The position numbers and the translations under genes were made by a program. Below, piece after piece: positions 9,617 to 56,800 of a DNA stretch of 64,000 nt. Position 1 is the stretch's first letter; every line of letters begins with the position of its first letter. The stretch spans positions 1 through 64,000 of the forward strand of contig JAAPAO010000063.1 in NCBI GenBank assembly GCA_013115145.1, written 5' to 3'. The notes below the pieces were generated by a model that was not told the DNA's origin, searched no databases, and worked only from the letters and a program-made list of their open reading frames with translations. This stretch comes from Perkinsus chesapeaki (Eukaryota > Perkinsozoa > Perkinsida > Perkinsidae).

Positions 9617-10405
9617 CTATAGCTCGATTGCATCCAACATTCTAAAATAGGCTTTCAATCTTCCTTTTGAATCTCTGGCGTTATCAACCCATCTACTGTT
9701 ATTGTCGTTATTGGTAAGACTGTGATAGTATCTTTGCCAAAGGTGAAGTGAACTTTCAAAACCTTCGATGTCATTTGCCCGCTTTCTCTCGAGCTCATTT
9801 AAAACGCGGCGGAATCTATCCAGTGGCCTCTCATCAGTCTCGATGCATGAGGTGGGTTTCCAAGGCAGATGGGAACTGAATGGAAATCTGCGTAGTGCGC
9901 GAATCGAACCTTCGGCGAAGCCTTCGAGACGAACTTACTAAATATCATCATCGCAGTCGAAGGAACTCGCTGATTGTTGTTGCTCATCAATTCTGTCATC
10001 ATCAGCTCCTCCCATTATCTGTTCTGTTCTGTCTAACGCTCGGGAGTATGTTTGAAATAATATTCTTTCGACACCCTCCTCATCAAGTTTAACCACTCCT
10101 TCCGAAATCTGTGGTAAGTTGCCTTCTGCCCACGATGCTTCACCGATTGATTGTAATGATACCCTTGCTGGCTTCTCTAAGTCATCTTTAACGTCTTCCT
10201 TCCCCTCCAACTCCCCCGTAGATGTCGACGAATGTAAAGTGTATCGGTCAGATTGTCCAATCTTACGTGGCCCTATTGCAGTAGTTTGAGATACTTTCAC
10301 TGTATCTGGTATTAACCGTGATGGTTCTACTAGAGTAGGCATGACCGAATTTATGGTTTCACGTGTATCTTTCAATGTAGGAGGATCATTCAGGCACACC
10401 CACAT
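9617..10405 (-). CDS. Unrecognised two-exon protein
   Basis: Exon 1 (10405-9939) starts MWVCLNDPPTLKDTRE and is polar, with an acidic Gln-rich end (DEQQQ, CDDDI). The intron at 9938-9876 (63 nt) joins to an exon that reads SHLPWKPTSCIETDERPLDR, then a charged helical stretch with NELERKRANDIEGF and WQRYYHSLT, and ends FRMLDAIEL before TAG at 9617-9619. The total is about 240 residues with no signal peptide or TM segment. I do not recognise the family. The gene is head-to-head with RACK1, 131 bp between start codons. Its single intron carries a T-arm-like element. Confidence 0.7.
9901..9910 (-). repeat. T-arm-like element in intron, sense to host gene
   Basis: The minus strand reads GGTTCGATTC inside the only intron (9876-9938) of the 9617-10405 gene, and is followed by GCGCACTACGCAG. 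It lies about midway along the 63-nt intron. Confidence 0.55.
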
Positions 10406-10446
10406 AGTAAAAACATCAAAGATGGAAGCCGCGCCGCGCTAGGAGA

Positions 10447-10466
10447 AATCGATCACGTGATCGATT
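10447..10466. promoter_or_regulatory. 20-bp palindrome in divergent promoter
   Basis: The sequence AATCGATCACGTGATCGATT is a perfect palindrome with a central CACGTG E-box core. It lies 71 bp upstream of the RACK1 start codon and 42 bp upstream of the divergent gene's start. The same 9-bp arms recur at 49816-49835 and, with changes, at 29133-29152 and 20722-20741. A role as a transcription-factor site is inferred from position and recurrence. Confidence 0.6.
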
Positions 10467-10536
10467 TGCTCCAACCTTGGATACTTCGTCCACCCCCACT
10501 GAGAGCTCACCACTCCGTTTGGCTTATCACCTTAGA

Positions 10537-11552
10537 ATGGCTCAAGAGCACTTGCAGTTCCGCGGCGTCCTTCAGGGACACAGTGACTGGGTTACTTCTA
10601 TTGCTACCACTTATGAGGATCCCAAGATGGTTGTCTCTGGATCTCGCGATAAGAAGATTATGATTTGGGAGCTTACCAACGACTCCGAGTCTGCTGGTTT
10701 CCCTCGTCGTTCTTTGACTGGTCATAACCAGGCTGTATCTGATGTCACCCTCTCCTCTGATGCTCAGTACTGTCTATCTGCCTCTTGGGATAAGACTTTG
10801 AGACTTTGGGATGTCTCATCGGGTAAGACTGTGCAGACCTTCGTTGGTCATACTTCTGATGTCTTCTCTGTTGCCTTCTCTCCCGATAACAGACAGATTG
10901 TCTCTGGTGGCCGCGATAAGACTATCAAGATTTGGTAATAACAAATAAGGGCAATTTTGGGCATTTTATCGTTTTTGTCTGTTCTTTTGGGATTTTCTAT
11001 GTTTTCAGGAACACCATGGGTGAATGCCGTCACACCATCGTTGATGATCAGCACACCGACTGGGTCTCCTGCGTCCGCTTCTCTCCTTCCGCCAAGCAGC
11101 CTCTGATTGTCTCTTGCGGCTGGGATAAGCTCGTCAAGGTCTGGTCTCTTGACAACGGCAAGCTTCGTATTAACCTCGCTGGCCACACCGGTGTTCTCAA
11201 CAACGTTACTATCTCCCCTGATGGATCCCTTTGCGCTTCTGGTGGTAAAGATGGTGTTGCTATGCTCTGGGATGTTAACGAGGGCAAGCATCTTTACTCT
11301 CTTGACGCCAACAGTAGCATCAATGCTTTGTGCTTCTCCCCCAAGAACTACTGGCTTTGCGCTGCCACTGATGCTGGTGTTAAGGTCTGGGATTTGGAGA
11401 CTAAGAACGTCCTTGAAGAGATCACTCCCCCTGCTGAGTACAAGTCCCCTCTCCCTTGGGTTGTTTCCATCGCTTGGTCTGCTGATGGCAACACTCTCTT
11501 CGCTGGTAGCACTGATGGTAACATCTATGTCTACGAGATCGCCAGATCGTAA
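10537..11552 (+). CDS. RACK1: RACK1, small-ribosomal-subunit WD40 scaffold
   Basis: Two exons (10537-10934 and 11009-11552) give 313 residues, the usual RACK1 length, made of seven WD40 blades. Diagnostic pieces are [41 protein letters not shown] across the splice, [21 protein letters not shown] and, near the C-terminus, VYEIAR. The ATG at 10537 is chosen because [10 protein letters not shown] matches family N-termini; an in-frame ATG at 10477 would add 20 residues. RACK1 binds the 40S head and links signalling to translation. Codons are strongly biased to C-ending forms, unlike neighbours, which fits very high expression. Confidence 0.97.
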
Positions 11553-11826
11553 GAAGTAAATAACAATGATAAGTAAACCCAATACTTTGGTGGCAGTAAT
11601 AGTTGCATTATTCTTCATTTAATAATGTTAATCATAACTGTTATCTGAGGTGGTCCATAGGGCTATTTTGGGGTGGTCGGTTTCCAGTGAGCCAATGCTT
11701 CATTAGTAACTTGAGTTGTAATGGCTATCATTCAATCTGGATGGTTGGAGGGGGCTGATTTAATGGAACTAACACTCAACTGTTTTCAATATCAACAACT
11801 TAAGCACACGTCGGATATTAACACCA

Positions 11827-12710: not shown

Positions 12711-13019
12711 TGATCAGCGGTGTGGAGGGATAAATAATGGTAACACACTAATAATGCATCGACGCTCCCTCCTTGATACTCCTCGCCTCCTGTGACAGGC
12801 TTCATTCAGAGTACGTTACAGCAGTAAAGTGATCATGTCCAATGAGAGAAGCGTTTAACGCCTCTTATTATTGATATGGAACTGATATTTCGTGCACATT
12901 TCTGCGCGCGTCCAGTTTCGAGCTTTGCCCATCAGACTAACAGAATAACTCAAGACGAGTTTAAAGTGAAATTATCATGCATTGCCACTCTGAGTGTCCT
13001 CAACAGACTAAAATAACAC

Positions 13020-17932: not shown

Positions 17933-19577
17933 CTATTCATTCTCATCTAACATCACGACTGCATGCCTCAGGATACTCTCAACAGTTTTCCGATCAACTT
18001 CATCATCATCACCAAGGTAAATCTTTTGAAGGTCTTCCTTATGTGGGCCATCAGGCTGCCATTTATCTAGTATATGAGCGGCAGTAACTTTAAAGCTCAA
18101 GAGAGCGTTGTAATCTTCAGTATTAATAGCTGAGGGCTTCGCCTCGACCATAGTATGCCTAATCATGTCACATCGTGTGCTTGAAGTAGGGGGTTTGGTA
18201 ACGATCAACGGGACAGCTTGCTCAAAGTAAATACCCTCCTTCAGAGGTTTCAAGTGTAAACCTAATAACTGCATCGAATGCTGGAGGGCAAGGAACTCTC
18301 CATCCTCCCACCAAGATACTGAAGTCTTCGCTCGACCTTCTTCTTTACTTGTATATGTACCTAAGGATCTATTAATAAGGTGATTATGATAAGATGATAC
18401 CTTGCATATTAAATAACTCATCAAATACAACAATACTTCCTTCTCTTAATAAACAAGCAACTGTTGTGAGGATCTCCAAAGCTGATGAATATATATCACA
18501 ATCTATATGTAGGAAAGCAATGAATGATGTTGTATTGACTATATCCCAATCAAGTAGTGGTAACGTATCTCGGAAAAGACCGATGTTGAGCCTTGCGTTA
18601 TCGACCTTTAGTATCCTTTCGGGTATGATACCACCCATATCGAATAGACCTGGCGAATTGAACTTCGGGCCCCATGCTTCTGGCAACCCCCTGAAGGAGT
18701 CAAAACCCACCACGGTTCGATTCCAAGCTCGAGCATGGTGTGCAAGACGGAGAAGACTTCTTCCATGGGCAACACCAAATTCCAATATTTGCCCTCCTTC
18801 ATCGATAAGTGGTCGAGCTGCATTGAATGCCTCATCAAACATGTCCATCCAAGATTGGGTTTGATGGAGTAAACCAAAGTAGTTACCCCACCAATATGAC
18901 ACTTGATCTGAATAGTCCAACCAAAACTCTAACTGTCCTACTTCTACCACATCCTCAACTCTACTGGGAGTAATCTTGACAGTAGTGTTATAACCCTCAT
19001 ACTTATCAATAAAGTAGATGTTATCTTGTACGTTGGTAGAGTTGTTAATACTAACTTCTTCTTCTTCTCCTACCCATGCCTCTATATGATATTCCCCAGC
19101 ATTGAGAATTGGCACCTCTATCTCAGCTACACCTCGGGCATGAAGAACGGCGAAGCCTTCAAGACAGATTTCAGTGATATTAAAATGACCAATACAAGCA
19201 TCACGGAAATTGTCAACTGGTGGGAGGCCATTAAAGAAGTTATCGAATATGGTGGATAGTAGAAGGGGATAGTCCTTATTACTTGTACGACCCATCCAAT
19301 CATCGCTAACAACACGTATAGCTGATCGGGATACTTTAAAGATAGCGAGTGTTAGTTTATGTATAGGAGGAGCCGTTGGAGTATCGGATATATGTATTGT
19401 AAATGATATAACATTACTAGTAGGCCGATTGGTGTTAGGGACTGGTGAGGACAAACGAATACATTTCTGAGAAGAATGCTCATGATAGCAGGATTGATGG
19501 TTGTGATGAGGTGATGGTTCGATAATTAGGGTGGTAGCGGTAACCAATAGTGATAGTAAAACAATGGTCAACAACAT
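17933..19577 (-). CDS. Membrane-anchored class I methyltransferase (TylF/macrocin O-MT-like)
   Basis: The first exon runs from ATG 19577 (MLLTIVLLSLLVTATTLIIE, a signal anchor) to about 18409; an intron ends in CCTTAG near 18360 and joins to the C-terminal exon ending VVMLDENE. A longer frame starts at 19673. The catalytic part has the SAM motif ILEFGVAHGRSLL, GFDSFRGLPEAWG, the strand FLHIDCDIYSS and VVFDELFN, which match TylF-type O-methyltransferases. The 220 residues before it are a lumenal domain of unknown type with several NxS/T sites (NST, NNST, YNTTV). A lumenal sugar or glycan methyltransferase is the simplest reading, by inference. The substrate is unknown. Confidence 0.75.

Positions 19578-22605: not shown

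Positions 22606-22607
<2 letters not shown>

Positions 22608-22643
<36 letters not shown>
22608..22643. repeat. (GTA)n microsatellite
   Basis: Twelve GTA/TAG triplets in the spacer between the helicase stop codon and the IQCH-like start codon. Confidence 0.95.
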
Positions 22644-22644
<1 letters not shown>

Positions 22645-22717
22645 ACTAATGTATTATTATTGGACAGCAGTTGGTATACGTAATACGTTGGTATGATAAC
22701 ACCCAGTTATCACGTTA

Positions 22718-25691
22718 TCATCGTCGTTTCTTAGACTTCCTTCGTCCACCCCCAAGTACCTATAAAATTATTACATAACATCTTTATCTATCCCAGAAGT
22801 GTTGTTACATCCTTCCGTATCCGCTTTTTGGTTACAACATTCAATCCTCCTCCTCCCCCAGCAGAAGCAGCTACTTCATTATCATCTTCAACACTGGACG
22901 TTTCATCACTGACAATCTCATCATCATCATCATCATCATCATCGACACCACCATCCAACAGCTTCATTTCATGCTCAAACTGTTTCCTCGTTATCTTCCC
23001 TGAATAATATAGTCACTGCGCCACAAAACTATAGCCTAACTAAATACCTTTCTTAAGCTTCTTTACCAAAGCCTCCTCCTTTTGAAGGGAATCCAGTTCA
23101 TGTTGAGTTGTTGTACGACGACATTCTCTTTTCTCAGCCCTGGTACGTATAGCATCTAGCAATACAACAGTCATTCTGTCCCTGATTATGTGCATGCGTG
23201 CAGCAGCAACAACAACACTCTACCAGATTTCTGTGTAATCTTCTCCCTCTTCCTCCTTCGTTCTTCTCTATCTATCTCAACCTTCTTCAATCGTTCCTGT
23301 CGGGACGCTTCCTTTGTGGGATCAGAATAAGCAACAGAATCTGGAACGACCTGAAAGTTGTCGATGCTGGGGATCGAACCTACGACTTTAGTCAGAGTTC
23401 CTACTACTACTACCTCTGATTGAACAAAGTTATCAATCCGTCGGCCCATAATCTCTTTAACTCTTGGTAGCCTTAATAAGCTGAATGATGTTGCAACATC
23501 CCCCAAATCGAGCTCCTACATTTGAAGGAGAATAAGGTGGTCTCTGGTTCGATCCAAACACCATACACTCCTTTACCTTAATGTTAAAGACAAAACTCAA
23601 TTCGTGTTCGGAGTAACCTCGTACGAAAGATACGAAAGCCGCAACTGCCTTGTCCAAGAAGTCACCTACAATATTACGGCGCGCGATAATAGTTAATCTC
23701 TTCATAAATTGTCCGCTTACGTGATTTTTCATTATAGTTTTTACGTATATCTTCCAACATTCCGAGTGCGTGTTCTTCAACATATCTTTCACTTTCATCA
23801 TCATCTTCCCATTTTGATAAAGATACTCCACGACACTTCAAGAATGAGAGATATCCATCAACCTGCATGAATTACCGTCGACTATTACTCACCACGCTTC
23901 ACGACCACCATTATTACCTCACTCTCCAACATACATGCTACAGCTTGACCATCTCTACCAGCTCTTGCTGTCCTTCCTACACGATGGATAAAAAAGGAAG
24001 GTGATTGTGGAAGATCAAATTGAATAATCCAATCAACCTAATGATGATAACCCGGGTTCGATCCCCGGTAATGACATATATTACTTTAGGAATATCAACT
24101 CCACGTGCAACAAGATCAGTAGCAAGCATAACATCAGTGCAACTGTTGGAGGTAGTTCTAAATTATTAATATAACATCATGGATAATAATACATGTTATT
24201 ATTAATTACCCTTCACTAAATGCTTTATATGCTTTATGTCGAGCTGAAGGTGTCATATGACCATGTAATTTATGAAGGCTAATGGATGCTGCTGCTGCTT
24301 TATCTGAGTTTAAATAACCTTGCCGAGGATCGAACCTGTGCCAACCTCCTTCAGTCTCATTCTTCCAAAGCTCTTTTAATATAGCATAATGGTAATCAAC
24401 CGACGCACATGTTAAGAAGAAGACCAAGACCTTTGAACCTACGTACCATCGATACCACCTCTAAGTCGTTGACGTTAATTGTTGAAGTCATACCAGATGA
24501 TCTAGTTTCAACAAAGTGTTTCATCCATCCTAGCTTATGACGTTGATCTATAACTTTATAATAGTTTTCGAGACCTTTAGGTAAATCATAAGTTGCATTA
24601 TCAGTACAAGAAGTAGTAGTTGATGATGATGATGATGATGATGATGGACGTGATAGTTTAACCTAATATTCAACCATCACTCAAGTTCGATCCCCAGAGA
24701 TGGTCTTTTAATTACATGTACAGGATTCCTAAGACCAGCCTTCTTTACCAATTGTTTGATCTCAGCTCCTGCTAACGTAGCAGAGAACAGACAAGTACGT
24801 CGCTGAAAGCAAGGACTCAGGTTCAATTCCCGGTAAGGGTATTTTACTTGTTTAGGTAGGACCGCGAATATATCAGACATATCCTTTTCAAATCCCAAAG
24901 CCAATAATCTATCAGCTTCATCTAATACCAATACCTCTGTAGTTTTAAACCTTAATGGACTATCCATATCCTTTTCGCATAAGATATGTCTTACTCTACC
25001 AGGTGTACCTATTATATCACAGATACGGTTAAATGAGGCTATATGAAATCCTTCTCACCAACTAGTATCAATGATGATCCCTTTGCTCCTTCAATAACTG
25101 CACGATCAGCATGTATATCTCTACCACCGACAAAGCAGTAACATTTAAGGTGTGGTACAGGATCAGCTAAAGGATATTCGGCTTGGTTAGATTCCTCAAC
25201 TACTATTAGTACCATGAATATATTGCATTATTATATCATGAATTTGTGTAGCTAATTCTCTAGTAGGGGAAAGAATAACTGCTCCCACACTAGCAGCTTC
25301 AGGGATAATAAACTCCGAACACGCTTCCTAACATACTTTATATCTAACCAGCTTCAAGCTAAGATACCCTATTACCCCTTCATCTGATAATTGTTTACTC
25401 ATCATTTCCATAATAGGTAATACAAATGCTAAAGTCTTCCCACTACCAGTAGCAGCCTCACATGCCACATCTTTATGTTGAAGGAATAATGGTATAGCAA
25501 CTGATTGAACCTAATGATGAAGAGGAGGAGGATAATATAAATTATTAATAAGACGATGATGATGATAATATCACCGGAGTTGGATGCTGAAATTTAAGGG
25601 TATTATTGACAAAGTCGATAGACTTGTCATTTAATCCAAGACCATTCCAGCTTCGTGGATGACTAGAGGAGGATGAAGTATTGTTGGCCAT
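22718..25691 (-). CDS. DDX55: DDX55/Spb4-like DEAD-box RNA helicase
   Basis: It starts [20 protein letters not shown] at 25691 and ends [11 protein letters not shown] at 22718. Helicase motifs appear in order: [14 protein letters not shown] (motif I), [17 protein letters not shown] (II, DEAD), [15 protein letters not shown] (III, SAT), [10 protein letters not shown] (IV), [13 protein letters not shown] across a splice (V) and [14 protein letters not shown] (VI). The C-terminal part has [17 protein letters not shown], then [14 protein letters not shown], and ends in a basic tail, as in Spb4/DDX55, which acts in 60S ribosomal subunit assembly in the nucleolus. Of roughly fourteen introns, six (23351-23413, 23516-23576, 24038-24084, 24319-24345, 24663-24715, 24803-24847) carry a tRNA T-arm-like element, a far higher share than in any other gene here. 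Confidence 0.9.
23369..23380 (-). repeat. T-arm-like element in DDX55 intron, sense
   Basis: The minus strand reads GGTTCGATCCCC in the 63-nt intron 23351-23413. The intron length is a multiple of three and has no in-frame stop, so splicing is inferred from conserved protein on both sides (FVQSE joined to VVPDSVAY). Confidence 0.6.
23546..23555 (+). repeat. T-arm-like element in DDX55 intron, antisense
   Basis: The plus strand reads GGTTCGATCC in the 61-nt intron 23516-23576 of the minus-strand gene. The flanking exons join SFVFNIK to [10 protein letters not shown]. Confidence 0.6.
24052..24068 (+). repeat. Perfect T-arm hairpin in DDX55 intron, antisense
   Basis: CCGGG-TTCGATC-CCCGG is a canonical T arm: five perfect stem pairs and a seven-base loop. 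It is followed by TAATGAC and A, as in a tRNA 3' end. It fills the centre of the 47-nt intron 24038-24084, between ARGVDIPK and [11 protein letters not shown]. Confidence 0.75.
24328..24337 (-). repeat. T-arm-like element in DDX55, sense
   Basis: The minus strand reads GGTTCGATCC then TCGG. The smallest intron that fits is 24319-24345 (27 nt, GT-AG). The sequence is also open in frame, so it may be translated as part of an insert between motif IV and HKLHGHM. Confidence 0.5.
24684..24693 (+). repeat. T-arm-like element in DDX55 intron, antisense
   Basis: The plus strand reads AGTTCGATCC then CCAGAG in the 53-nt intron 24663-24715, between LRNPVH and VKLSRPSSS. Confidence 0.55.
24820..24845 (+). 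repeat. T-arm-like element in DDX55 intron, antisense
   Basis: GGTTCAATTCCCGG is followed by TAAGGGT, A and TTTT, matching T arm, acceptor strand, discriminator and Pol III terminator in order. It occupies the 45-nt intron 24803-24847, between VLPKQ and [10 protein letters not shown]. Confidence 0.65.
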
Positions 25692-25851
25692 AATGTACAA
25701 TGGCCTGTGGAGGAGGAGGAGGAGGAGGGGCCCTGCTACTAAACAGTACTATTAAAGTCAAACATAATGGATAAACAGAAACAATAAGACCATGATGAGA
25801 TGATGGTGAGGATTATTATTATTATTATGATGGTGCTGCTGCTGCTGTTCT

Positions 25852-26466
25852 TCATTCTTCTTTACTTCCTGTGTATTCGAGTAGCTTACGAAATACCGAA
25901 TTATTATCTATAAGCTCACTCGGTGCCACGGACTGAATTCATTCACTAGGGATCGAACCTGGAACCTTTTGTTGTTTCATCACCTGGGCCGATAACCATT
26001 TGTATAAATCAGGATTCTCTAAAGCTAACACTTCCTCAAACTCATCAACTTCTCCTTCTGGCATATCACGTAGGTAGCGATCTATCATTATGAATGATTG
26101 AGTGATGACATTATTACTACTACCTGCAAAACTACCAAGGATAACATCTAATTCAAGATAACCTCTTTGCCGGGCTCTGAGTTATCCATAACAAGAATAA
26201 TAATATTTATATCACTTAATATTTTACCTATATAATAAAACCTTCTTTCTACCGTCTAAATCGCCCGATGATAGCTCAGGTTTATATCCTCTTATTGGAT
26301 GTTCGGTGGTGGAGTATGAGCAATTCCTCATCATCAACCTACCACACTTCTCTATATATATCATAAACTTGATGACATACCTACCTAGCAGCAGCACGAC
26401 CAGTAACAACCAATTGCCTCTTAGTAACAAACGAAGTCATCATCAAACTAATCGAACGAAGAAGCA
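25852..26466 (-). CDS. SDHAF2: Succinate dehydrogenase assembly factor 2
   Basis: Five exons from ATG 26466 to TGA 25852. The N-terminus (MLLRSIS, FVTKRQLVVTGRAAAR) is Arg-rich and fits a mitochondrial targeting peptide. The core reads RKKVLLYRARQRGYLELDVI, LGSFAG, EGEVDEFEEVLALENPDLYK, WLSAQ, and ends VFRKLLEYTGSKEE. This is the SDHAF2/Sdh5/SdhE fold, which promotes covalent FAD attachment to SdhA in the mitochondrial matrix. Length after processing is close to family norm. The last intron (25933-25983) carries a T-arm-like element. Confidence 0.88.
25950..25959 (-). repeat. T-arm-like element in SDHAF2 intron, sense
   Basis: The minus strand reads CCAGG-TTCGATC-CCTAG, with four of five stem pairs, in the 51-nt intron 25933-25983, between KWLSAQ and SVAPSELID. 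Confidence 0.65.
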
Positions 26467-26607
26467 TTCTTTCGGACCTTACTAACTAATAAGAACTATA
26501 ACTAACTAATATTGTTCAACACAACTATTATTATAATGTCTTCTTGTTGGAATGATGATGATGATGATGCTGACATAATACGTTTACTGTATTTATCAAG
26601 TAGATAC

Positions 26608-28450
26608 TCATTTATCTTCTTTCTGGCTCCTCGATGATCGTTCCTCAGAGTTGCGTCGAGATACCCTACTTGTCTCAGAATCAGAACGTCGCCCAAAACT
26701 CAAAGACCTTCGCCTAATGGAAGTGATAATACCCGGGTTCAATTCCTAGTTGAGGCTATTTATTACTCATCTTTATTCCTATCACTTTTAGATCCTCTAT
26801 TACTCTTTCTAAAATCCCGACTCTGTGGAGGTGTCCTTGATCTATTATTATTATTGTTATTATAACCCTTATCATAGTATACTACTACCTTGATGCCTTC
26901 CTCCTTCTTGCTGTTTCAGGTCCTTCTTCTTCAGTATCATCTCTCCTAGTTTGTCTTCTTGGTCTCCCTATTGGTGTTCTATTCTCATTATCTTGTCTAA
27001 TTATTAATATTATTATATCTACCCTAACCTTTAGTTACACTAACCTTCTATCCCTTCTCTCTTCAGATACTCTCCGACTACTCCTCCTATCATCGCCATG
27101 TGACCTCCGATGATGATGATGGTCATGATGATGATGATAACGTCCCCGACGACTATCATCATCTCGATGCTGTATCGATCGACTATCTCCAATTGTGCAA
27201 TACCCTATCCCCCTTCTGTTATTCTTACCTTCGTCTCCTCCTTCCATCTCTACTATTTGGTTCATCTATATCTCTTGATCGTGATCTAGGTGAGGGAGAT
27301 CTCCTTCTATAATAACATTATCACTTTACCATCCACACCTTTATTACCCTACCTCCTCGATCTACTATCCTCATTATCTGCTTCTGATCCTCTCCTTTGC
27401 TTTATTCTTCTATCTGGTGTACGTGACCGCCTATAATACTACTATACATGAAGCCACCGATTAATATTACGATGATGATGATTTCCTGTGTAATGGTTCA
27501 TCATCACCATCAGTTCTTGTTGTTGTTCTTGTTGATGTACCTCCTACTGGAGCAGCATTATTCGGTGATGATCCAGGTGACGGTGGTCTAATAGGACCAC
27601 GGCGAACTATAACAATAAAATAATAATAATAATCATTTAGTAGTTATATTACTACTTCTGGTATCAAAAGCCGGAGCAGTTGGAATAAGTAATGGTCCAG
27701 GAGGGGGAGGAGGAAGATACGACTCTTCATTCTCCTGCAACATAATACTACTATAATAATATACAGTAATCCATTTATACTACCTTTTTAGCTGCGGCTT
27801 CAGCAGCAGCTTTTCTTTGTTCAATCTCTCTTTTAACCTTTTCAGCTTCCTCCTTCTTTCTCATCATCTCCCTCTTCTTTCGATCAACCAATTGAGCTGG
27901 TACACCAGCTGGTGAGTCCTACTTTAAAATGCATTGTTAAATGGATAATCATAACATCGTCTTCACTTGAGCGCTCAATAACATCTCCCATAACTCTTCA
28001 CAGAATGGCGCTGCGCCACGTTGAAGAAAGCCTGTTAAACTTAATTGCATCAATCTTGGATCAACCTATTTAATGATAATATAATCCGCACTTCTTGAAT
28101 TTGGTGAAGTGTGAAGTATTGCTGTCTTTGTTGTTTATTACCTCGGTATGATCCGGTGTTGCTGTTATCTGCTCTATTGCATAGTCAATAACAATATCAT
28201 CTTCTGTACCAATAATATCAGTTATTCTATCACTTATCCATGGACGTATAACATCCACATTTATACGGTTAAGATCAACTGGCCTACTTTAACTTACTAA
28301 GAGATGTCGACTGCTGTTGCTGAGGTAGTAGTATTACTTATCAAAAGACTTTGGGAATTTCATCTTAGCCAAAAGCTTCTGATCCCCAGTCTTCTTGAAG
28401 AATGGATCTTGATCTGATGCTGTCCCTCGGAAATAGGATCCACCTTCCAT
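26608..28450 (-). CDS. SRRM1: SRRM1-like PWI-domain splicing coactivator
   Basis: It starts MEGGSYFRGTASDQDPFFKK at 28450, which parallels the SRRM1 N-terminus, followed by the PWI domain: NRINVDVIRPWISDRITDII, GTEDDIVIDYAIEQI. A Lys/Glu-rich helix comes next, then a long Arg/Ser/Asp-rich region (RRSHGDDRRSSRRVSEERRD) and a C-terminal RS tail (RRSDSETSRVSRRNSEERSS) ending at TGA 26608. SRRM1 bridges splicing factors at exonic enhancers and binds nucleic acid through PWI. The gene has about nine short introns; that at 26714-26766 contains a T-arm-like element. Exon borders in the low-complexity middle are approximate. Confidence 0.85.
26733..26758 (+). repeat. T-arm-like element in SRRM1 intron, antisense
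   Basis: CCGGG-TTCAATT-CCTAG then TTGAGGC and an AT-rich run, in the 53-nt intron 26714-26766. Four of five stem positions pair if G-U is allowed. Confidence 0.6.
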
Positions 28451-28884
28451 CTTATTAATGATGATGATGAAGATACTAATAAGATATTAATTATTATGAT
28501 AACCCACTAACACAACAGATAGAGATAACAGAAGGAAACGACGATGATGAAATAGAACACCAACGATAACAACAACAGCAACATAAGCAACAACGGTAAG
28601 AATAGGCACTGGTGCGGTACTAACGCTACAAACGGTATTAACTGCTGTGGTTATTGCTGCTGCTGATGCTGATTGTGATAGTTATCATCGTAGAAAGGGT
28701 TATCTCCCATATCATTATAGCAGACAAACATGAGCAACAACAACATCAAGTGTTCATATTATAACCTATACAACATAATAGCTCTATGATGATGAGGGTA
28801 ATGTCAAACTAAGAGCGTGAACTTGTAGATATATCAAACAAGTTGGCTGAATAGACAAATATGAAGGTGGGAAGAGGAGGCGTG

Positions 28885-28908
28885 GGTTCTATCCCTGGTA
28901 ACTTCATT
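28885..28908 (+). repeat. T-arm-like element, host unclear
   Basis: GGTTCTATCCCTGG is followed by TAACTTC, A and TTTT, the same layout as the intronic elements. It lies in the unresolved spacer between SRRM1 and the hydrolase gene. Confidence 0.5.
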
Positions 28909-29132
28909 TTAAGAGGAGCGTGTAGTAGGAAATAATAGGAATGTAATAGAAAGTTAATAAATACACAACATGACCAATTTGACACAACAAGTAACATAAT
29001 CTTCATCATCATTATCCAACAATAGGGGAAGACAGTGTTATTAATAATACATGGTATATATTATTTATCAATGTACGATACCAAACGGTAGCTTAGTTAT
29101 GGATATATATATATATATATTCAAGGCCAAAT

Positions 29133-29152
29133 AATCGATCACATAATCGATT
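29133..29152. promoter_or_regulatory. Variant of the AATCGATCA palindrome
   Basis: AATCGATCACATAATCGATT keeps both arms of the RACK1 promoter palindrome with one base changed in the right arm. It lies in the spacer downstream of the 29290-32851 gene. Confidence 0.4.
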
Positions 29153-29289
29153 ATATTGATGATGATGATGATGATGATGAAATAAGTCCATGAAACGAGG
29201 TGAAGAAACAAGGTGTTATTATAATGGATGATGAGACTAATACAACAACATCATTATACTACTACTACTGCTACTGATGATGATGATGT

Positions 29290-32200
29290 TTAACATGACT
29301 TAACAAAGCTAGGTGGACTAAGGAATGTGAATACATTTCCATGACCTGTTCTCGTTAATCTAGTATAACGTTGTTCAGCTGGTGTACCAGTTCTAATAAT
29401 ATCAGCTATATCTGATACAACCTGTACGTTAAGGTTAAAGAAATTATGTCTTAGATCATGAACATTTTGATCCATATGTGTTGTATCCATAACATCTACA
29501 TAATCTTGACCATACTTCTTACCCGTTACTGGATCAACACAGCATATCTAATAATATTACATTGCTATTATTGTTAATAATCCCACTGATACTACTAGTA
29601 CCTCTTCTGGATGCTTTCCTAAGGCTTTCTCATTATTAAATAATTCAGCCCATATTAAAGCACCATCTTTAAGATCAGCATACACCGAAACCCGTTGACA
29701 ATATTCTAATAATGTTGGTAGTATCTATATTACTATACCGATAATTTATACTACTAAAATCTATATTACTTGTTCTTTGAAATGATCTAATGGATAATCA
29801 CCATTAACAAATATAACATTACATAAAAGCATCCGTCTAGCATCACAGCCCCCACCGGCCTCCAAATCACATAGTTCTTCATCATTATCATCATCTTCGA
29901 GAGATGGGGAACCAAAGTCAGTCTCTACAACGATTCAAAATAATGAACAACAGCAGCAACCCCGGCCGGGATTGAACCCACAACCTCCCGCTATATAAAC
30001 CACCAACATAACCTTTTAACCATTACTACCTTTCCGTTCCATAACTGGTATTTCCTGCTCTCTTCGTTCATGTATTTGTGATGATTGAATAACATCATCA
30101 ATACAAGTAGTTGATCCTGGTACACGTGTTCTTATCCTTAAAAAGGATCGACGCTCCATCTCTGGTAAAGCCTCACAGAATAACCTAATAATACCAATAA
30201 TAATATCTACCACTTTTAGTTATTATTGTTACTACTACTACCTAGCGCCCATTGAGTGTACTAAGAAATGCACTCTAAGGAATCCAGCTTTTCGTAATTC
30301 AAAGACAAAGTCAGATAAATCACCAGCAAATACTGGCAATGACCACATTGCCCAATGATATGTTAAAGCCATACCAGTACCTAAATCATCATCATCATCA
30401 TTGAATGCATAATGGTGCTGCTCAATACAACAATCCTTTACTATTCTTACTCTGTGAGAATATGAATGGTTTAATATATAGTGGGAACTGTCCTAATGCC
30501 AATAATTGGCCCAATCTTTCCATAGCACTTGACATCTTGCAATTATAACCATGAAGGTATACCAAAGCTTCCGGAGCTGGATCAGCTAGCTCCTTCAATA
30601 GAGGAGCTGGTAATGAACTCTGTGCCACCAAAGGTTGACCACCTATCATATATGTTATAACCTATTAATCTCTATGTTATAGAATATTACCAACAATATG
30701 AACTGGTAATGATACAGGTGGACAATCCTGAGATAGGCTACGCCTAGGTACTTGTTTTTTACCAAGATCTGCGTATCCAGTTTTCGAATGACGCACTGAA
30801 TATAAATATATTATTTAAATAACAATAATATGCTCATCATTACTCCTCAATCCAGCCGCAGCAGTAACAGCTGACATCACCTTATTAGATTCACTACCAT
30901 TAAATCCATTATCATTATCATTATCATCACTGGCACAACCACCAATCAACTCTCTTGATACATGATCACGCTTTAAAGCTTCACTTATTCGCCACATATC
31001 CGAATCTCGTGCCTATATTAAAATAATAATATCCAACCATACCGCCTTTTATCCTTGATATTATTATTATTACAACTCGTATATTTAAATGTGGCGCCAA
31101 TCCAGGGGATTCCATACCATTCAATGCTTCAGCACTAAGCTCGCGGAAATCAGGATCACTAAATAAAGATCATCTTGTTATTATTAATATATAATATAGT
31201 ATTACTCTCCTTTATATTTCCTAACCATATCTTGTACATAATAACTAGCACCAACCAATGGTCTAACTCTTGGTAAATGAGAAAAGAAGCTCCCAGATGC
31301 CGATGCCTCTACATTAGCTATACCACATCTTAGACCTTGAGGATCTCTATCAGGAAACCATAATTTATCATGAAGACCTAATACATCATTAATATCAACA
31401 ACAACAACACCACTAATTACTACCTTTCTCTTTCCTAGTTGTGGCCCAGAATATCTTACGGCTCATAAACATAGATCCACTACCAAACTCTCTTGATACA
31501 AAAGGGCTTGTTGGTCGACCTGGAATTCGATTATGATTACTAGTTAATATAATCTTATACACGGGGGGTTACTACCTCTTATCCACATTCCTCTTAATAG
31601 CTCACCATGTGCTGAATCATCCATCCACATACCCAGACCATTAGGTAACCCATCTTCATCAACATGACCAGTAAATCTACATTTATTACGAGCAATGGAG
31701 AATGGACCATAACGCTTATAACAGAAACTAACAACAGCAATGATGGTAGATGGTAGTATTGAATATATTATTACTAGTTTGAATCTTGGTCATCTCGCCT
31801 CATTTTAAACCAATGTACTAATAACCAATCTGGCCTCATATGACCAATCATGAAGGGGTATCCAAAATGTACAATCAACTGTGAGTAATAATGAACAGTA
31901 GTAGTATTGTTCTTTATTACATATGCCAGAAAAAGGGCAACTTCTATACATATAATAACCGCTACAATAGTAGTCTCACGGTTTGATAACCCATCCCACT
32001 AACCAATATAACTTATTATTATTATTCTCGTTGTTGTTATTACCCTTGTTGATTCCTCTGGATCATATGCCCATACCCCCCAAACAATACCACAAAAGAA
32101 TGTTGTAAGTGCCATAGTATGAATAACTGGTTTAAGGAATGCCGCAATACATATAATCATCCAAACTACTGCCACAAACTAATGATAAATAATAACATAA

Positions 32201-41370: not shown

Positions 41371-41433
<63 letters not shown>

Positions 41434-41958
41434 TTTATAACCTAGCGTATATACAGTACTAATCCCTATAAGTTTCATTGATCATCAGCAGTCTGAAGAA
41501 GTAGTTGAGGGGAAGTCGCAGAGTCAAGCTTGACACTGCGAATTTCGCGATGCACACGGTGCAACATGCACCAATTATAGCGATCTTTTCTTTTCGCTAA
41601 TTTGGCAACATTTTCCATGCCGATCCATATAATAAGGAGATTCTCTGAGCTTGGGGCACAGAGGCACAAATCCGGCAGAGAATGCTGCAGGTGACAAAAA
41701 CGTGATATTCTACTGTGAGTTAATTTGGAGGTCTGTACTCTAACTGGGAAGCAGCATTGAAGAAAGAGAAGCATTATATTAAGCGGATGTATACTAAGTG
41801 ATACACTGTACTAGTATGACAATTCATATTTTATTAGATTAGTCATGTGTCATTATTAACCTTTATTAATGGTATTGTTGTTACTTATGATGTGACACAA
41901 GTAACAAAAGTCATGTACTACGGATCAGGTTGTTCATTGATATGCTTGATTAATAATG
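40849..41958. other. Gene-poor spacer with (GTA)21 microsatellite
   Basis: No convincing gene was found. A (GTA)21 tract spans 41371-41433; the apparent poly-Tyr frame across it is a repeat artefact. A 99-codon minus frame at 41475-41774 has no domain. A Gln/Ser-rich plus stretch at 41205-41245 comes from a GCAGCAACA repeat. Confidence 0.6.
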
Positions 41959-41960
41959 TA

Positions 41961-42265
41961 CAGGGTGATGCGAAAAAAAGGGTCCATGCCTCATATTTTT
42001 TGGCGCGTGAGAGTCACGAGTGAAGTAAGGTACCAGCTTGAAGCTCTTGGTGAGCCCTTTCTAATGCCTTATCAACCATTGCGATACTCGAATAAGGCTC
42101 TGAGTTATAGCTCAACAAAAAAACTGTTACATAGAGAAATGCGCTCATCATTAGAAAGGCATTAGAAAGGGCTCACCAAGAGCTTCAAGCTGGTACCTTA
42201 CTTCATTCGTAACTCTCACGCGCCAAAAAAATATGAGGCATGGACCCTTTTTTCGCATCACCCTG
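41961..42265. mobile_element. Foldback MITE, Tc1/mariner-like, with TA target duplication
   Basis: A 305-bp element made almost wholly of inverted arms. The left arm, 41961-42069, begins CAGGGTGATGCG and is matched in reverse complement by 42157-42265, ending CGCATCACCCTG, with only two or so mismatches in 109 bp. The spacer is 87 bp. The dinucleotide TA flanks both ends (41959-41960 and 42266-42267), the target preferred by Tc1/mariner transposases; CAGGGTG termini are also common in that superfamily. It encodes no protein and would need a transposase in trans. High arm identity suggests recent insertion. Confidence 0.9.
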
Positions 42266-42694
42266 TATAATATTAATGAACCCTATGAACATAACGATGT
42301 ACGACTTCAACGTTATCAGGCACTAACTGTTATTATCAGCCACTTTATTATGGATACAAGTAAGGATGGATTTAGTTATATCCTAGGATTTACATAATAA
42401 GGTATAACAATTGTATTAAAATCCACCACTTTAAGAGCCGCTGGTATTGTCCTTTCTATTCTCTCACTTGTCTCAAAGTGTGTATCGATTCTAGTATTAC
42501 ATTCTATGTTTTATAAAATACATTCTACTTGTTATAGCATTCAGCAAGCATTCAGTTAGAGTAATTAATCAAATGACATCATCATTACAAGAACCCGAAC
42601 AGGAACAAGAGTCTGACATACATCACTTTCAACACAATAAGTCTATTATTATTATTAACAGAAACATTAACACCATGCATTATCATCTTAATCA

Positions 42695-45113: not shown

Positions 45114-45250
45114 TAAATTAATAATGATAACTATTGATAATAATAATAGACACTACGTAAGAACACAAAATACTTATATATGATGATAATGGTTATCCGA
45201 CAGTTTCACGTAACTTAAATGGATAATCATATCTAGTGTAGAGTAATGTT

Positions 45251-45252
<2 letters not shown>

Positions 45253-45282
<30 letters not shown>

Positions 45283-45309
45283 AAAGAAGAAGAAGAAGAA
45301 GAAGAAGAA
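45253..45309. repeat. (GTA)n and (AGA)n microsatellites
   Basis: About nine GTA triplets directly followed by about nine AGA triplets in the spacer 45114-45515, which otherwise shows no gene. Confidence 0.95.
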
Positions 45310-45515
45310 CTACGATAATGGTGAATGATGAAATCGTACAATAATAGTTTGGAGGGTTTGGAGGGGTTACCAAGCTTGAGAGAAGTTATTGAATAATACT
45401 AGTCATATTAGTTATGTACCATTTACAACAACACTAATAATCATAGAGTAAGAATAATATTATTAAATCACATGAATCACAAAAATATAATATATCATCT
45501 AAATGATTATTATTA

Positions 45516-48261: not shown

Positions 48262-49636
48262 TTATCGATGTCCTCCTCCTCCTCCACCACCTCTACGTCT
48301 ACTACTATTATTGTTATCCTGAAACACGAAATGAAGGTAAACCCTTTTGGACCCCTTAAACCCATTTAAGCTACTACTATATTCAATTATACTTATACAC
48401 TATAAATATATTCATTAATAATAATATACACCATATTCTTATACTACATAAACGTACTACTTAACCATATTAAATAACCGATAATTACTATTCATTAGCC
48501 TTATTGTTGTATCAACAACATTATAAGCTACATTCAACAACAACACAGCGGCAGCAGCAGCCCTTTCACGTGACTATTAGCGTGTGCGCACGCGTGCAGA
48601 ATTATTGTGTGCTTGTCCCTATTTAATATTTCGGACCTTCTTGTTATTGTTGTTCTTTGGCATTGTTGTTGTTGTCTCTGTTGTTGTTGTTGCACTACCA
48701 GTCATTGCTCTCATTAATCCTCCAGTAATACCATCATCATTGGCAGCAACTAACAGTGTATTATTAATTGTTGCTATTACTATTATTATTGTTAAGTTGT
48801 ATGTTACCTTCTTTCATTTCATTCATAGTTTCTTCATCCATCATACTTTGTTGTAATCTTGGTAAACATAACATAAGCCCACACATAACAAGTGCCATGA
48901 TAGCCATTGGTGATTTTAATACATGAACCAGGTTAAAACTCTAACAACAACATCATCATCATCATAAACGTAGTAGTAATTATTATTATAGTTATCACCT
49001 ACCTCTCTTTGAGTAAAGTATTGTATCTCATTTATTGCTGATATAACCAATGGTAATCCTGATGTAACCATTTTACCATGTGAATGTAAAGGGTCAAAGT
49101 GATGAACAATCACTTTATTATCCGGTAATACATCAATAGTAAACTAATATAAAATAATACCGCAATCAGGCATCGAACTTGTGCCCTCTGTTGCTGATGC
49201 TCGAGCTGTTTACCTCTTCAAAATCTATATCTTTATTAACTACTTGTAATACATATGTCCCCAAGTCAACATCAGCACTGTCCATAATAAAATCTTTCCG
49301 CACTAGCAAGAATATTCTACTCACATTCTAAAGATTCCTCTTTGGTCAACATTTGCACCATACTCTCGTCCATCTTCAAGTATAACCCTTGAATTAGCAA
49401 ATATACTTGACAAACCTCCACTGCTACTACTGCTACCACCATCATCATGCTCAACATATATCTTATGCTCTACTTTACCTAGAATATTATTATTAAACAT
49501 ACTATTATCATCAGCATTAATAATAATGAGCACTACCGTTATTACTTGGTATTTGTAATACACCAGTAATATCAACAGCTTCAATAGGAAGGATACTACT
49601 CAATATTGAAGCTAGTACCATAAAGTAGTTAACCAT
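48262..49636 (-). CDS. EMC7: ER membrane protein complex subunit 7
   Basis: The signal peptide is MVNYFMVLASILSSILPIEA, followed by a lumenal beta-sandwich (NSRVILEDGREYGANVDQRG, DLGTYVLQVVNKDIDFEE, FTIDVLPDNKVIVHHFDP), then NEIQYFTQRE, the TM segment HVLKSPMAIMALVMCGLMLC with LPRL, and a cytosolic tail with Asn and RRRGGGGGGHR. The order signal-sandwich-TM-polar tail and the RExxxxxxxLxSPMxxM pattern match EMC7, part of the EMC insertase. About 220 residues. The intron at 49144-49213 carries a T-arm-like element. Confidence 0.82.
49169..49179 (-). repeat. T-arm-like element in EMC7 intron, sense
   Basis: The minus strand reads AGTTCGATGCC then TGATTGCGG in the 70-nt intron 49144-49213, between KDIDFEE and FTIDVLPD. 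It has no TAATAAT tract, unlike other introns nearby. Confidence 0.5.
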
Positions 49637-52131: not shown

Positions 52132-52302
52132 TTAACCTATTATCTATCTTGCATGCATCAAGATTAGATACCGGTCAACAACACAACTCCACGATACTTC
52201 AATAACTAATAAATGGTAACAAAGCCTTCTATTAGCAATGATGAATCCTTAAATATCTTAGGTTAAATTATGCAAGATATAAAATGAGTCAAGTCAAGCA
52301 CC

Positions 52303-53764
52303 TTACATTATAGTACAACCACAACACTTGGTTATCCTTTTACGTCTATTAACAGTATGCATACTTCCCATCCTTCTCAATGGCCCTGATGATATATTAT
52401 CATCATCTAAGCTGCTGTCTTCATCTATTATATCATCATTTATAGACCCTATTGTTGATGGAATGTGTCCGCTATCACTTTCTTTACAATCTCCTTCCAA
52501 TACTTCCCCTTTTAACAGTACATCCCCTTCCCCTTTTAACAGTACATCCCCTTCCCCTTTTAACAGTACATCCCCTTCCCCTTTTAACAGTACATCCCCN
52601 NNNNNNNNNNNNNNNNNNNNNNNNNNNNNNNNNNNNNNNNNNNNNNNNNNNNNNNNNNNNNNNNNNNNNNNNNNNNNNNNNNNNNNNNNNNNNNNNCAGT
52701 TCTCCTTTTAACAGTACATCCCCTTCCCCTTTTAACAGTACATCCCCTTCTCCTTTTAATACTACTTCTGCCCTTTGTTCATATTGTGTATGTATTCTAG
52801 ATGTATCTGCTTGTGACCAATCATCAACTTGTATTAATTTTTCTAATATTTTTGTAATATCATTAAACTTGGGTCGTTTATTGATATCCTTATCAATACA
52901 CAACATCCCAACATTTACTAGTTCCCCTACTATATAATTAGGCCATCCTGCTTTATTATCAATCAATGACCATATATCAATGCATGTTGTTTTACCCATT
53001 ATAAAATTATATTTTATATTATTGTTATTATCATAATAAGCTGGTGATAATGATGTTAAAGTTTCTAATATAACCATACCAAATGAGTATACTTCTGATA
53101 ATTGATTATATATATTATTATTAATATAATATGGGCATATATAACCAGGTGTACCACTTATATTATTACTTATAATATTATTTGGTATGAAAGCATTGCC
53201 CAATAATGATAAACCAAAATCAGCTAATTTACCTTCATTATTATATTGTAATAATATATTTTGGCTTTTAATATCCCTATGATAGGCCTCTGGTATCCTA
53301 TTATGTAAATAACCTAATGCTTTTGATATTGATAATAATACTTTAATACGATCACGATAATTAAATAATGTATGTTTATTAATATGTAATTTATCATATA
53401 ATGTACCATTGCCTATATATTCATATATTAATATTCTTATATTATTATATCTAGCAAAACCAATTAATATAACTAGATTAGGATGCCTATATTTAGATAA
53501 TATATTAATTTCTTGTATAAATCCATATTGTGGATTATTTAATAATTTAACAGCTATATTAGTACCATCCGGCAATATACCTTTATAAACAGTACCATAA
53601 CTTCCTATACCAATTATATTATTAAAACCATTAGTTGCCTTATATATTATATTATACGGGAATTCAAGTGATACATCATTAATTAATGTAGCATCGTGAC
53701 GATCATCAATCAGGGAGAAAGGATTATTATTCATGCTACTAATCAAGTAATCACCAATGCCCAT
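52303..53764 (-). CDS. TKL/Pelle-like protein kinase with 8-residue C-terminal repeats
   Basis: The kinase domain reads IIGIGSYGTVYKGILPDGTN, IAVKLL (Lys), FIQEINILSKYRHPNLV, LIYEYIGNGTLYDKL, YHRDIKSQNILLQY (HRD), KLADFGLSLLG (DFG), ISGTPGYICPYY and SEVYSFGMVILETLTS. All catalytic residues are there, but the usual APE Glu is replaced (ICPYY). The style resembles plant RLK/Pelle kinases. A tandem array of KGEGDVLL follows, interrupted by 97 Ns (52600-52696) that shift the frame, then CKESDSGHIPSTIGSINDD, DSSLDDD and a basic tail KRITKCCGCTIM at 52303. The frame mismatch across the Ns reflects an estimated gap length, not necessarily a broken gene. The start may be the second ATG (MNNNPFSLIDDRH). 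Confidence 0.82.
52502..52760. repeat. 24-bp coding minisatellite with assembly gap
   Basis: Units of CCCCTTTTAACAGTACATCC type, 24 bp each, at least four on one side and two on the other side of an N run (52600-52696, 97 Ns). On the minus strand they encode the 8-residue repeat KGEGDVLL. Copy number is unknown because the array broke the assembly. Confidence 0.95.
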
Positions 53765-53880
53765 AATTTGTCTAAAATGGATTTGATTTCGAAGGTTAAG
53801 CGCGCGCCCCAGGCCTGCTATCCTCTTCTAATCATTGTTTGGGGGCACATTATCTTATTGCTAGTTGTTGTTGTTGTTTA

Positions 53881-56800
53881 ATGTCATCTTGTAGTAGCAG
53901 TGGTGTTAGCAGTGGTGATATACCATCTGATGTTAAAAAGGATACATCAGAGAATGCATCCTCTTCTGATAGTGCATCTCTTGGGTCATTATTAAGATTA
54001 TTTAAATCCGAGGTAATAATGGGTATTATTATTAATATTTAAAGATATAATAGGTATTTGATGCTTATTATCATATGCACTATTTACATACAATGACATC
54101 ACAAGGTGTTAATGATTATCTAGTTAATGAATTGTAATAATAATATTATATATATCTATTATAATTATTATTAGATACAAAGTTAATGACAAATATATTG
54201 ATTTTTATTTACCGCAACTAGTATATTCATCATTGAAGAGGATCAATACAGTAATATTATATAATAATATATTAATATCGACTTGCAGTCATCACTGCAT
54301 ACATTCCTACTTGATAAAGCAGCCCAAAGGATGGGATTTGCTCTTAAACTTCATTGGCTGTAATAATAATAGATATATCGTAATTATATATGTATTTACT
54401 AATAGTTATCAAGCAGTAGTTGAAGATGGTCCTAAAGTTACTGGCACGGAAATGCATGAAGCTGCATTAAGATTATGTCAAGAAAGTGAAATGGCAATAG
54501 TTAATTGTGGTTTAGCTCAAAGTGTTGGTAATAACTTATATGGTGTGTATATAATAAATATATATATTATATAGCAACGGCTAGAAAGAAACAATCAAAT
54601 GCTGCATTAACAAGAGGTGATACTAGATTACAAAAACATCAATTAAAACATAAAGATAGTATTAATAAAAGGACATCAACATCACAGGTAATTTTTAGGT
54701 ATATTAGGATTTAATAAGGTAATATTAGGTCATGGCAAGGGCCGGTGGATTAGCTGGAAATTGTGGTTATAATAAAGATGATAATAAAGATAGAAATAAA
54801 GGAGATGATGATAGCGCTGAATCTATGGATGATAGTGCATCAATAAATATGTAATAATATATATATAATAGGAATATATTATATATATTAGTGGTGATAA
54901 TAATATAACAAGGAGTAACTCTAATCCAGAACTAGTTAATAGAATAAATAACACACAAGATGGTAATAATAACAATTATTAATATTGGATGATATAAATA
55001 GATGATAATGCTGATGTTATAGATGATAAAAAAACTGTTAAGGATGATAAAGATGTAATATAAGGATGGGAATTTAATAATATAGTATTATAGGTTGTAT
55101 CATTACAAGAATCATTAGAAGATTTAAGAAAGGCTTCCAGAAGTGCTAGAGCACAAGCAAGTCCATATCTTAATAGGATAAGTAATAATATATGTTATAA
55201 TAATATTAATAACTTGTATTATATGATGATAAGGTACAATGTCAATATATGGTGAATTGGGTGATCCAGAAACATCTATTGATCGTTATATAGCTGTAGC
55301 TGGTATTGATCTACCTAAAGCAACATCATCATCAACAGCAGCAGCAGCAATGCTTGAGAATAGTATCATGGATGATAAAGGAAATGAAAGTGATGAAGAT
55401 ATTAAACATTTAGATAATGAAATGGAAAAGTTCTTATTAAAACAATTAAGGTACTATTAACCTCAATAATAATAGGTAATCGAATGTTGTTGTTATTATT
55501 ATTAATATTGATAGGTGTGATTATTTTAATAATCAAAATACCTTTGTTGCAGCATTATGTAGATTATCCTGTTTATTAGTAAATCATTCAGAAAGAAAAG
55601 AATGCCTATCAGCAGCTATGTCACAATTAAATGAATGGTTATTTGAAAGTAATAATAATAATAATATACTAACTCATATCATCATCAATATTCATTCCAT
55701 TATTTATTATATAGGGAGAGCAGCAGTAGCAATGACTACTGGATCATTTCAATTAACTGGTTTATCATTACCACAAGGTATGCCTGCTTGTAATAATAGA
55801 AAGGATAGTGTACAAACTCATATTATATCTGTAATAATAATAACAAGCATTATTAATAAAGAGGTAGTAATAGGTTCATATCGATGATTGTAAAGTGTTT
55901 AAAACACGTACAAGGGCACCATATATGTTAACATTAGAAGTTGCTGATCTAGATGAAATATTTGATAAAGCATCACCAAAGCCCAGAACATCACGAGAAC
56001 GGTGTAATGAGGTTAGCAAGTAATAATAAAAGTATCTTAGCTTAAAGCTTGCATTATTGAATAGATATGTACTTGGTGAAATGGATACTAAAGTTGTTGT
56101 TGATGATGGGCATGGTGGTGTAGATACATTATTTAAAGAATCATTATATCCATATAGAGATGAATTACGTTATGCTGTGGCTCATACACCAACAATTGAA
56201 TGGTGTAATCATTTCTATGGTAACATTATTAAAGATTGTATGAGAACATTTCAAGTTGGTACTATAGTAGATCCGTATGATAATAATAATACGGATACTA
56301 CTTCAGGTAGTAATAATAATAACTAATAATGTATATTAACTATAATAGGTATGGCTACCGCCGCTGCCGACTCTACGGTATCAATAACAGCATTAGAAGC
56401 ATCAGCTTTAGCAAGTAGTGATGATACGGAAGGTAATTAATGCTGGCAGCAGCAGCAACAGCATGGGTTCGATTCTTGGTAGAAGCATTTTATTTAGTAA
56501 ATAATAATGAGCAAGAAGAAGAAGCACAACAACAAGAACAGCAGCAGGTAACACCTCATCAAAAACGGAAGCAGAAGAGGCAAGAAGAAGCTGAGAAGGT
56601 TATAATAAATAATATTATTAACTATAATAGTTAATATTAGTAGTAGGTTAGGAGATCAATATGGGGTGAACCATTCAAAGATAAGAAAGCACGTATAAGA
56701 AAGAATAGTGTATATGGTAATCTAGAATCATGGAATGTTGTACAAGTATTAATAATAATATATTATGTTATAAGGATTATTATTATTAGGTTATGGTTAA

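Follow-up and report, generated by a model that had tools for sequence, protein, structure and literature searches.

How spliceosomal introns originate is an open question, and a stretch of the Perkinsus chesapeaki genome bears on it. The stretch, hereafter the window, comprises bases 1-64000 of contig JAAPAO010000063.1 in an assembly of 35.39 Mb and 884 contigs (GCA_013115145.1). Several of its short introns carry the sequence GGTTCRANYCC, which is both the core of the tRNA T arm and the internal B box of RNA polymerase III (Pol III) genes. An earlier note on this DNA listed fifteen sites with this core or a one-base variant, placed twelve of them in introns, and proposed that the introns were made from, or invaded by, 3′ fragments of tRNAs. 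Here we ask what the motif belongs to, whether the introns around it are real, and how the two came to coincide. Our sequence comparisons are best explained by insertions resembling tRNA 3′ ends that would be spliced out of exons, an introner-like process of tRNA-like origin, although we hold this explanation to fall just short of probable.

Results

A dispersed family with a tRNA-like 3′ end

A scan of the whole assembly, proposed in the earlier note, established that the core marks a dispersed family. The exact core occurs 2155 times (1074 and 1081 on the two strands, real tRNAs included), compared with 285 (158 and 127) for its reversed control. When ATTTT is required exactly ten bases beyond the core (core-N10-ATTTT), 419 matches remain (205 and 214) and the reversed control yields 0; with one mismatch allowed the numbers are 1260 (599 and 661) and 10, some tRNAs being included in both counts. 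An ARAGORN tRNA contained the listed core in 7 of 40 sampled one-kb loci, and the 3′ end of a real tRNA-Arg accounts for one 26-mer that occurs twice among the first 100 core-N10-ATTTT matches. The commonest tRNA type in the sampled loci is tRNA-Arg(TCT), and several near-identical tRNA genes lie close together on contig C440 (L037-L039, L047, L049) and on other contigs. We also applied a position matrix, trained on 32 elements from elsewhere in the genome, to 144 kb made up of the window and eight C1 stretches; it found 22 matches of at least 20 bits against a mean of 0.0 in ten simulations. The window had been picked by the earlier note and the C1 stretches with known matches in view; because these sequences were selected rather than random, element densities within them are not genome averages.

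The element is a module of about 36 nt, in which a variable-loop-like AGGTC, the B box, an acceptor-like strand, a discriminator A and four T residues follow one another. Across all sequence examined, core-N10-ATTTT with up to two mismatches was found at 51 sites outside ARAGORN tRNAs (14, 18 and 19 with 0, 1 and 2 mismatches), while the reversed control gave 0, 0 and 2. Two of these sites, window position 18714 and L073, were dropped as likely chance, and the remaining 49 form our consensus set, in which conservation of the core is partly built in because most loci were chosen for an exact core. In element coordinates, where the A of ATTTT is +21, the 5′ part has A or G at -9, G at -6 in 34 copies, C at -4 in 42 and C at -2 in 31. 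Beyond the core, C stands at +11 in 31 copies, A or G at +12 in 46 and G or C at +13 in 45; positions +14 to +17 are free, and G follows at +18 in 34 and +19 in 28, with C or T at +20 in 45. The end is marked by A at +21 in 37 copies and by T at +22 to +25 in 42, 42, 43 and 37. We take position -4 to correspond to tRNA position 48, and +21 to the discriminator, position 73. In the aligned elements no clear conservation extends past the T run on one side or beyond about -10 on the other. Among the matches listed, the 10-mer between core and ATTTT differs in nearly all copies, with weak subfamilies.

Element copies in the window

Allowing one mismatch, the core is found 22 times on the two strands of the window, a count that includes the real tRNA and counts near-palindromic sites twice. 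Dinucleotide shuffles give 6.25 on average, and none of 100 reaches 22. With one-base variants counted, chance thus supplies more than the one or fewer matches estimated earlier. Of the fifteen sites on the list, fourteen were recovered within 0-3 bases, and their sense and antisense labels were correct. The fifteenth, at 49169, reads AGTTCGATGCC on the minus strand and carries two mismatches rather than at most one, yet scores 24.3 bits with the matrix, which was trained elsewhere in the genome. The list had missed an exact match at 18714, in predicted coding sequence, and one-mismatch sites at 32, 9315 and 25185.

All twelve intronic placements were supported, on unequal evidence, with eight sites lying in introns of our gene finder and four in introns recognized by eye and by continuation of the reading frame. 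Copies at 5649..5684 (core 5659-5669) and 5933..5968 (core 5943-5953), both on the plus strand, lie outside predicted introns, and a third on the same strand, at 28875..28910 (core 28885-28895, with one mismatch and the usual spacing to ATTTT), lies outside predicted genes.

Placement within introns

Gene models were obtained with a two-strand gene finder self-trained on the sequence, which predicts 520 introns of median length 47 nt in genes with at least 300 coding bases. It labels the 22 matrix matches as intron in 11 cases, exon in 5 and intergenic in 6, where introns make up 18.4% of bases (p = 7.5e-4); after sites 24820, 24326 and 26736 were reassigned to introns by reading, the numbers become 14, 3 and 5. 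We also measured the loss to the gene model when a site is forced to be intronic, for 68 sites that have the exact core and lie outside tRNAs, a set that still contains chance matches and counts one palindrome twice. An intron of at most 75 nt could be placed at zero cost around 21 of the 68 cores, whereas control positions from those stretches allowed this in 19 of 215 cases (odds ratio 4.6, p = 2.8e-5), which bears out the proposed enrichment in introns. Short-intron placements within 4 units of the optimum comprise 13 sense and 12 antisense cases, one palindrome appearing on both sides. Both orientations are about equally frequent in element introns. In the window the preferred donor of predicted introns is GTAATA, compared with GTAAG in C1/C2 loci, and trinucleotide runs (GTA, TAA, ATT) are common in window introns, for example at 22606-22652, 41371-41441 and 45244-45314.

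Eight element introns have GT or GC at the donor, AG at the acceptor, and protein continuity across the junction. In an SPB4-like helicase gene on the minus strand, the 47-nt antisense intron 24038..24084 (core 24055-24065, plus strand) interrupts the helicase C domain, and Helicase_C scores 80.6 bits in the whole spliced protein against 47.9 in the fragment that retains the intron. The 46-nt antisense intron 23516..23561 (core 23546-23556, plus strand) lies in the CTE_SPB4 domain, which scores 55.5 bits spliced and 33.8 retained, both as fragments. Two sense introns lie on the minus strand in an Sdh5-family gene (25933..25983, 51 nt, core 25949-25959), where the junction follows residue 85 and falls inside the Pfam match (residues 32-105), and in a DUF900 hydrolase-like gene (29925..30029, 105 nt, core 29968-29978), where the match to residues 119-397 spans the junction at 260. 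For the Sdh5-family gene, the gene finder gives a 226-nt intron around site 25949; we replaced it on homology, and the gene model constrained to the shorter intron lies 4.3 units under the optimum. Outside the window, an antisense element intron of L062 lies in CCT4, with the alignment running through the junction and two extra residues beside it; that of L071, in a uridine-cytidine kinase, aligns without gaps at the junction. The antisense element introns of L084, a GC-AG intron in ankyrin repeats, and L082, in a voltage-gated K+ channel, are likewise supported by homology.

The other element introns of the window rest on gene models and reading frame. On the minus strand, the gene finder predicts a 63-nt sense intron at 23351..23413 (core 23370-23380, also a matrix match), a 53-nt antisense intron at 24663..24715 (core 24684-24694, plus strand), whose retention would shift the frame, and a 70-nt sense intron at 49144..49213 (core 49169-49179, the two-mismatch site above). 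On the plus strand, a sense intron starting at 56433 (core 56466-56476), upstream of a PI3/PI4-kinase domain, ends at 56482 according to the gene finder or at 56497 by eye, and the frame stays open either way. The four introns recognized by reading are all on the minus strand. A probable 63-nt sense intron at 9876..9938 (core 9900-9910, one mismatch, 13.8 bits), absent from the gene finder's calls, adds about 86 codons to the frame when spliced and brings an immediate stop when retained. Splicing the 53-nt antisense intron 26714..26766 (core 26736-26746, plus strand), in sequence that the gene finder calls intergenic, continues the RS-rich tail of a PWI-domain protein. The 42-nt sense intron 24304..24345 (core 24326-24336) and the 45-nt antisense intron 24803..24847 (core 24820-24830, plus strand; donor GTAAAAT, the complement of ATTTTAC) are called exon by the gene finder. 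Homology cannot discriminate here, because both stay in frame if retained: the former gives 80.6 bits in the whole spliced protein and 79.5 in the retained fragment, and the latter a DEAD match of 127.9 bits spliced and 122.2 retained. In one set of nine proteins only two have a Pfam match, one of them weak (SRI), and in L067 (3647-3689) a weak DUF218 match stops short of the junction; such introns are predicted by the gene finder alone.

The copies are strongly clustered in 22718-30029, where nine element introns lie in neighbouring genes, six of them within the one SPB4-like helicase gene. Some regions may be hot spots.

Element and intron coincide in length

In a hand-made list of 27 element introns, 26 measure 40-65 nt and one 105 nt, with a median of 51 nt compared with 47 nt for the 520 predicted introns; the list was built by seeking short introns around the core and therefore favours short lengths. 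The constrained placements offer a less biased check, and 25 of 32 are at most 75 nt. Because the motif itself spans about 36 nt, little room is left around it for an older intron of the usual size. Element and intron thus roughly coincide in the hand-compiled list, as in introners, and since an element intron is about as long as an ordinary one, it seems that the element itself makes up the intron and does not sit within an older one.

Relation to tRNAs and similarity among copies

At normal thresholds, the only tRNA detected in the window by Rfam and by ARAGORN, run with and without introns permitted, is a genuine tRNA-Ser(AGA) gene (2398..2479, minus strand), which sets aside full-length or intron-bearing tRNA genes as the source of the window's sites; 331 ARAGORN calls at a halved threshold were taken as noise. 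The elements do not have the cloverleaf with A and B boxes of a tRNA gene. tRNA-derived short interspersed elements (SINEs) have an A box, an internal B box, an unrelated body and a tail, and the elements do not have this structure either. A mature CCA end was rarely seen, +21 onward reading ACC in 4 of 68 exact copies and ACCA in 1 of 68, and a 5′ acceptor partner upstream has no preferred position.

The 27 exact copies with the 3′ signature have no excess of A boxes (4 sites, 3.0 expected). The other 41 have 9 such sites (4.4 expected), four of them exactly at -44, and these four copies are probably degenerate tRNA-like genes. A-box-like sites at tRNA spacing (-42 to -45) number seven among the 68, and some copies may retain a longer tRNA-like body. 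By eye, L017 (1501), L025 (1501) and L088 (496) look like degenerate full-length tRNAs with an A box near tRNA spacing, which ARAGORN does not call. L017 has 49 nt in common with the element intron of L106, and the alignment of this pair reaches 34 bases beyond the core on its upstream side (80% identity), a hint at a longer shared body. L017, L025 and L088 may connect the element family with tRNA genes.

In a small database of the 68 copies, blastn at E < 1e-5 joins 3 distinct pairs and one palindrome with itself; a database of genome size would not give these. When 456 introns of at most 80 nt were scored with a matrix whose training set included these elements, the distribution was bimodal: 15 bits or more are reached by 13, and the range from 5 to 15 bits holds one intron at 5.3 and two near-palindromic copies scored on their second strand. 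On this ground we reject the idea that most introns are decayed elements.

Other features of the window

A near-perfect inverted repeat at 41937-42289 has 75-nt arms that are 97% complementary and 85 nt apart, plus an outer 45-nt pair. It matches a MIR1023 hairpin model on both strands, below the cut-off, and looks like an element of the miniature inverted-repeat transposable element type. A tandem 24-nt repeat containing a run of N lies in or beside a protein kinase gene (52480-52792). G+C drops along the window from about 0.44 to 0.27 and is 0.46-0.52 in the C1 stretches; composition is strongly heterogeneous within one assembly.

Discussion

In the reading we favour, a dispersed Pol III module resembling a tRNA 3′ end would insert at many sites in either orientation, and a copy landing in a coding exon would persist by being excised by the spliceosome as an intron of about 40-65 nt, the intron being created at insertion. 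For a sense copy, the donor would fall within the variable-loop segment or ahead of it, and the T run would lead into the AG. For an antisense copy, the donor would fall at or close to the sequence complementary to the T run or the acceptor strand, with the acceptor AG beyond the variable-loop complement. Antisense donors were observed within the T-run complement in 24803-24847, L081 and L095, and within the acceptor-strand complement in L098 and L084. The copies end sharply at the T run and have a vague 5′ limit, which suggests that RNA was copied from its 3′ end, and insertion might have occurred by 5′-truncated, tailless retroposition of RNAs ending in U4. Insertion is favoured because orientation is even and because, with intronic copies counted as coding insertions, densities in coding (14 per 86.7 kb) and intergenic sequence (5 per 30.9 kb), about 0.16 per kb each, match the random-insertion prediction, although the numbers are small. 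A fuller version would have tRNA-3′-end-like Pol III transcripts inserted at probably more than 1000 sites, with exon copies becoming introns instantly, in either orientation, through usable splice signals that the variable-loop/T-arm/terminator sequence would hold on each strand; this we regard as doubtful.

Several observations weigh against the favoured reading. The outer T-stem pairs occur at chance, in 23, 24 and 23 of the 49 elements compared with 25.6, 27.2 and 22.0 when partners are re-dealt, so that the intact T stem of a tRNA retropseudogene is not found, and no other pair stands out as covarying among 708 tested (largest 3.5 sd). Copies resemble one another little. An 85-nt query around one copy matches only itself in the genome, and in an all-against-all comparison of the 68 copies, each taken as 120 nt, the best pairs other than the palindrome match at 79-92% identity over 23-49 nt around the motif. 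Near-identical 10-mers are few, with 26 pairs at no more than one difference among 100 sequences (5.7 in column shuffles). Decayed copies are likewise few: in the 144 kb scanned with the matrix, none scores 16-20 bits, four score 13-16 (0.2 simulated) and one 10-13 (1.9 simulated), with a slight excess at 7-10 bits (10 against 5.5 simulated). The antisense donor is not fixed at the terminator, since the continuation ATTTTACCT occurs in 4 of 419 matches and in 1 for the permuted control. Finally, at the element-intron boundaries, no target duplication clearly exceeds the usual boundary bases, and boundary identity is much like that of control introns (0.78 against 0.54 at position -2). What survives of the earlier proposal is its intronic part, through the genome-wide family, the enrichment, the presence of both orientations and the match in length. 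Direct copying of 3′ tRNA fragments is unsupported. A tRNA-like Pol III module whose immediate source is left unspecified would fit these data better than simple tRNA copies, and the low similarity among copies could be reconciled with it through diverse sources or selection in place.

Selection in place is also the main rival to insertion. By this account, the motif is a site for TFIIIC or Pol III, a B box with a terminator that works regardless of orientation, much like extra-TFIIIC (ETC) sites, which are B boxes outside tRNA genes, and the introns are where such a site fits within genes. The copies would be old and their flanks turned over. A strong linear motif with diverse flanks, the scarcity of decayed and sibling copies, the lack of RNA-structure covariation and the indifference to orientation are all in keeping with it. 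Yet element and intron are of nearly equal length, and many 36-nt motifs would have to arise within introns of about 46 nt without insertion; moreover, a bare B box does not require C48 or A73, both of which are preferred here. We consider selection in place unlikely. Rather improbable, too, is a different mobile element, introner-like, whose 3′ end resembles a B box and T run through an old SINE and not through tRNA directly. Linked positions in the 10-mer give it subfamily structure, and the missing T-stem pairing and the lack of A-box excess in copies with the 3′ signature agree with it, but it would be an element without a shared body or 5′ end, nothing clear being conserved beyond the limits of the module.

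Two simpler accounts fare worse. Elements might have been inserted into pre-existing introns, and they are indeed intronic, with 7 of the 32 placements within 4 units of the optimum exceeding 75 nt. However, adding about 36 nt to an intron of about 46 nt should give at least 80 nt, whereas 26 of the 27 listed element introns measure 40-65 nt, which makes this account very improbable. Some exact matches in exons, such as 18714, do look like chance, and the gene finder missed four of the twelve introns of the window; nevertheless, the counts of 419 against 0 and 22 against 0.0, together with homology across junctions, make chance matches or wrong gene models a hardly credible explanation for the whole.

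The elements differ from each known system with which we compared them. Like tRNA-derived SINEs they have an internal B box, but they show no A-box excess with the 3′ signature, no shared body, and a T run directly after the discriminator position. Like ETC sites they are B boxes outside tRNA genes, but they have a T run at tRNA spacing and form introns. Tailless tRNA retropseudogenes, as described for therian mammals (PMC5322556), are likewise truncated, dispersed copies of small RNAs without an A tail; here, in contrast, the copies keep their 3′ end and its T run, many of them form introns, the intron boundaries show no clear target duplications, and the T stem is not intact. Introners, as described in PMC9860276 and PMC12768974, are similar in that many introns in one genome are a repeated element, seemingly born by insertion, whereas copies here share only a motif of about 26-36 nt. 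The definition given in PMC12768974 takes introners as groups of introns with blastn E < 1e-5, a degree of intron-to-intron similarity that our elements do not reach. Such grouping would miss most copies genome-wide because only the short motif is common to them. The words tRNA, SINE and Pol III are absent from the main text of PMC9860276. Among the matches listed in our literature search, which left subscription papers mostly outside its reach, no title or abstract opening described this system.

If selection in place were true, P. chesapeaki would have an unusually large number of sites within introns that combine a B box with a terminator. If, on the other hand, introns in both orientations are made by a tRNA-like Pol III module, this tRNA-derived way of gaining introns would largely escape similarity-based introner searches, and intron gain could use sequence that is present in every cell.

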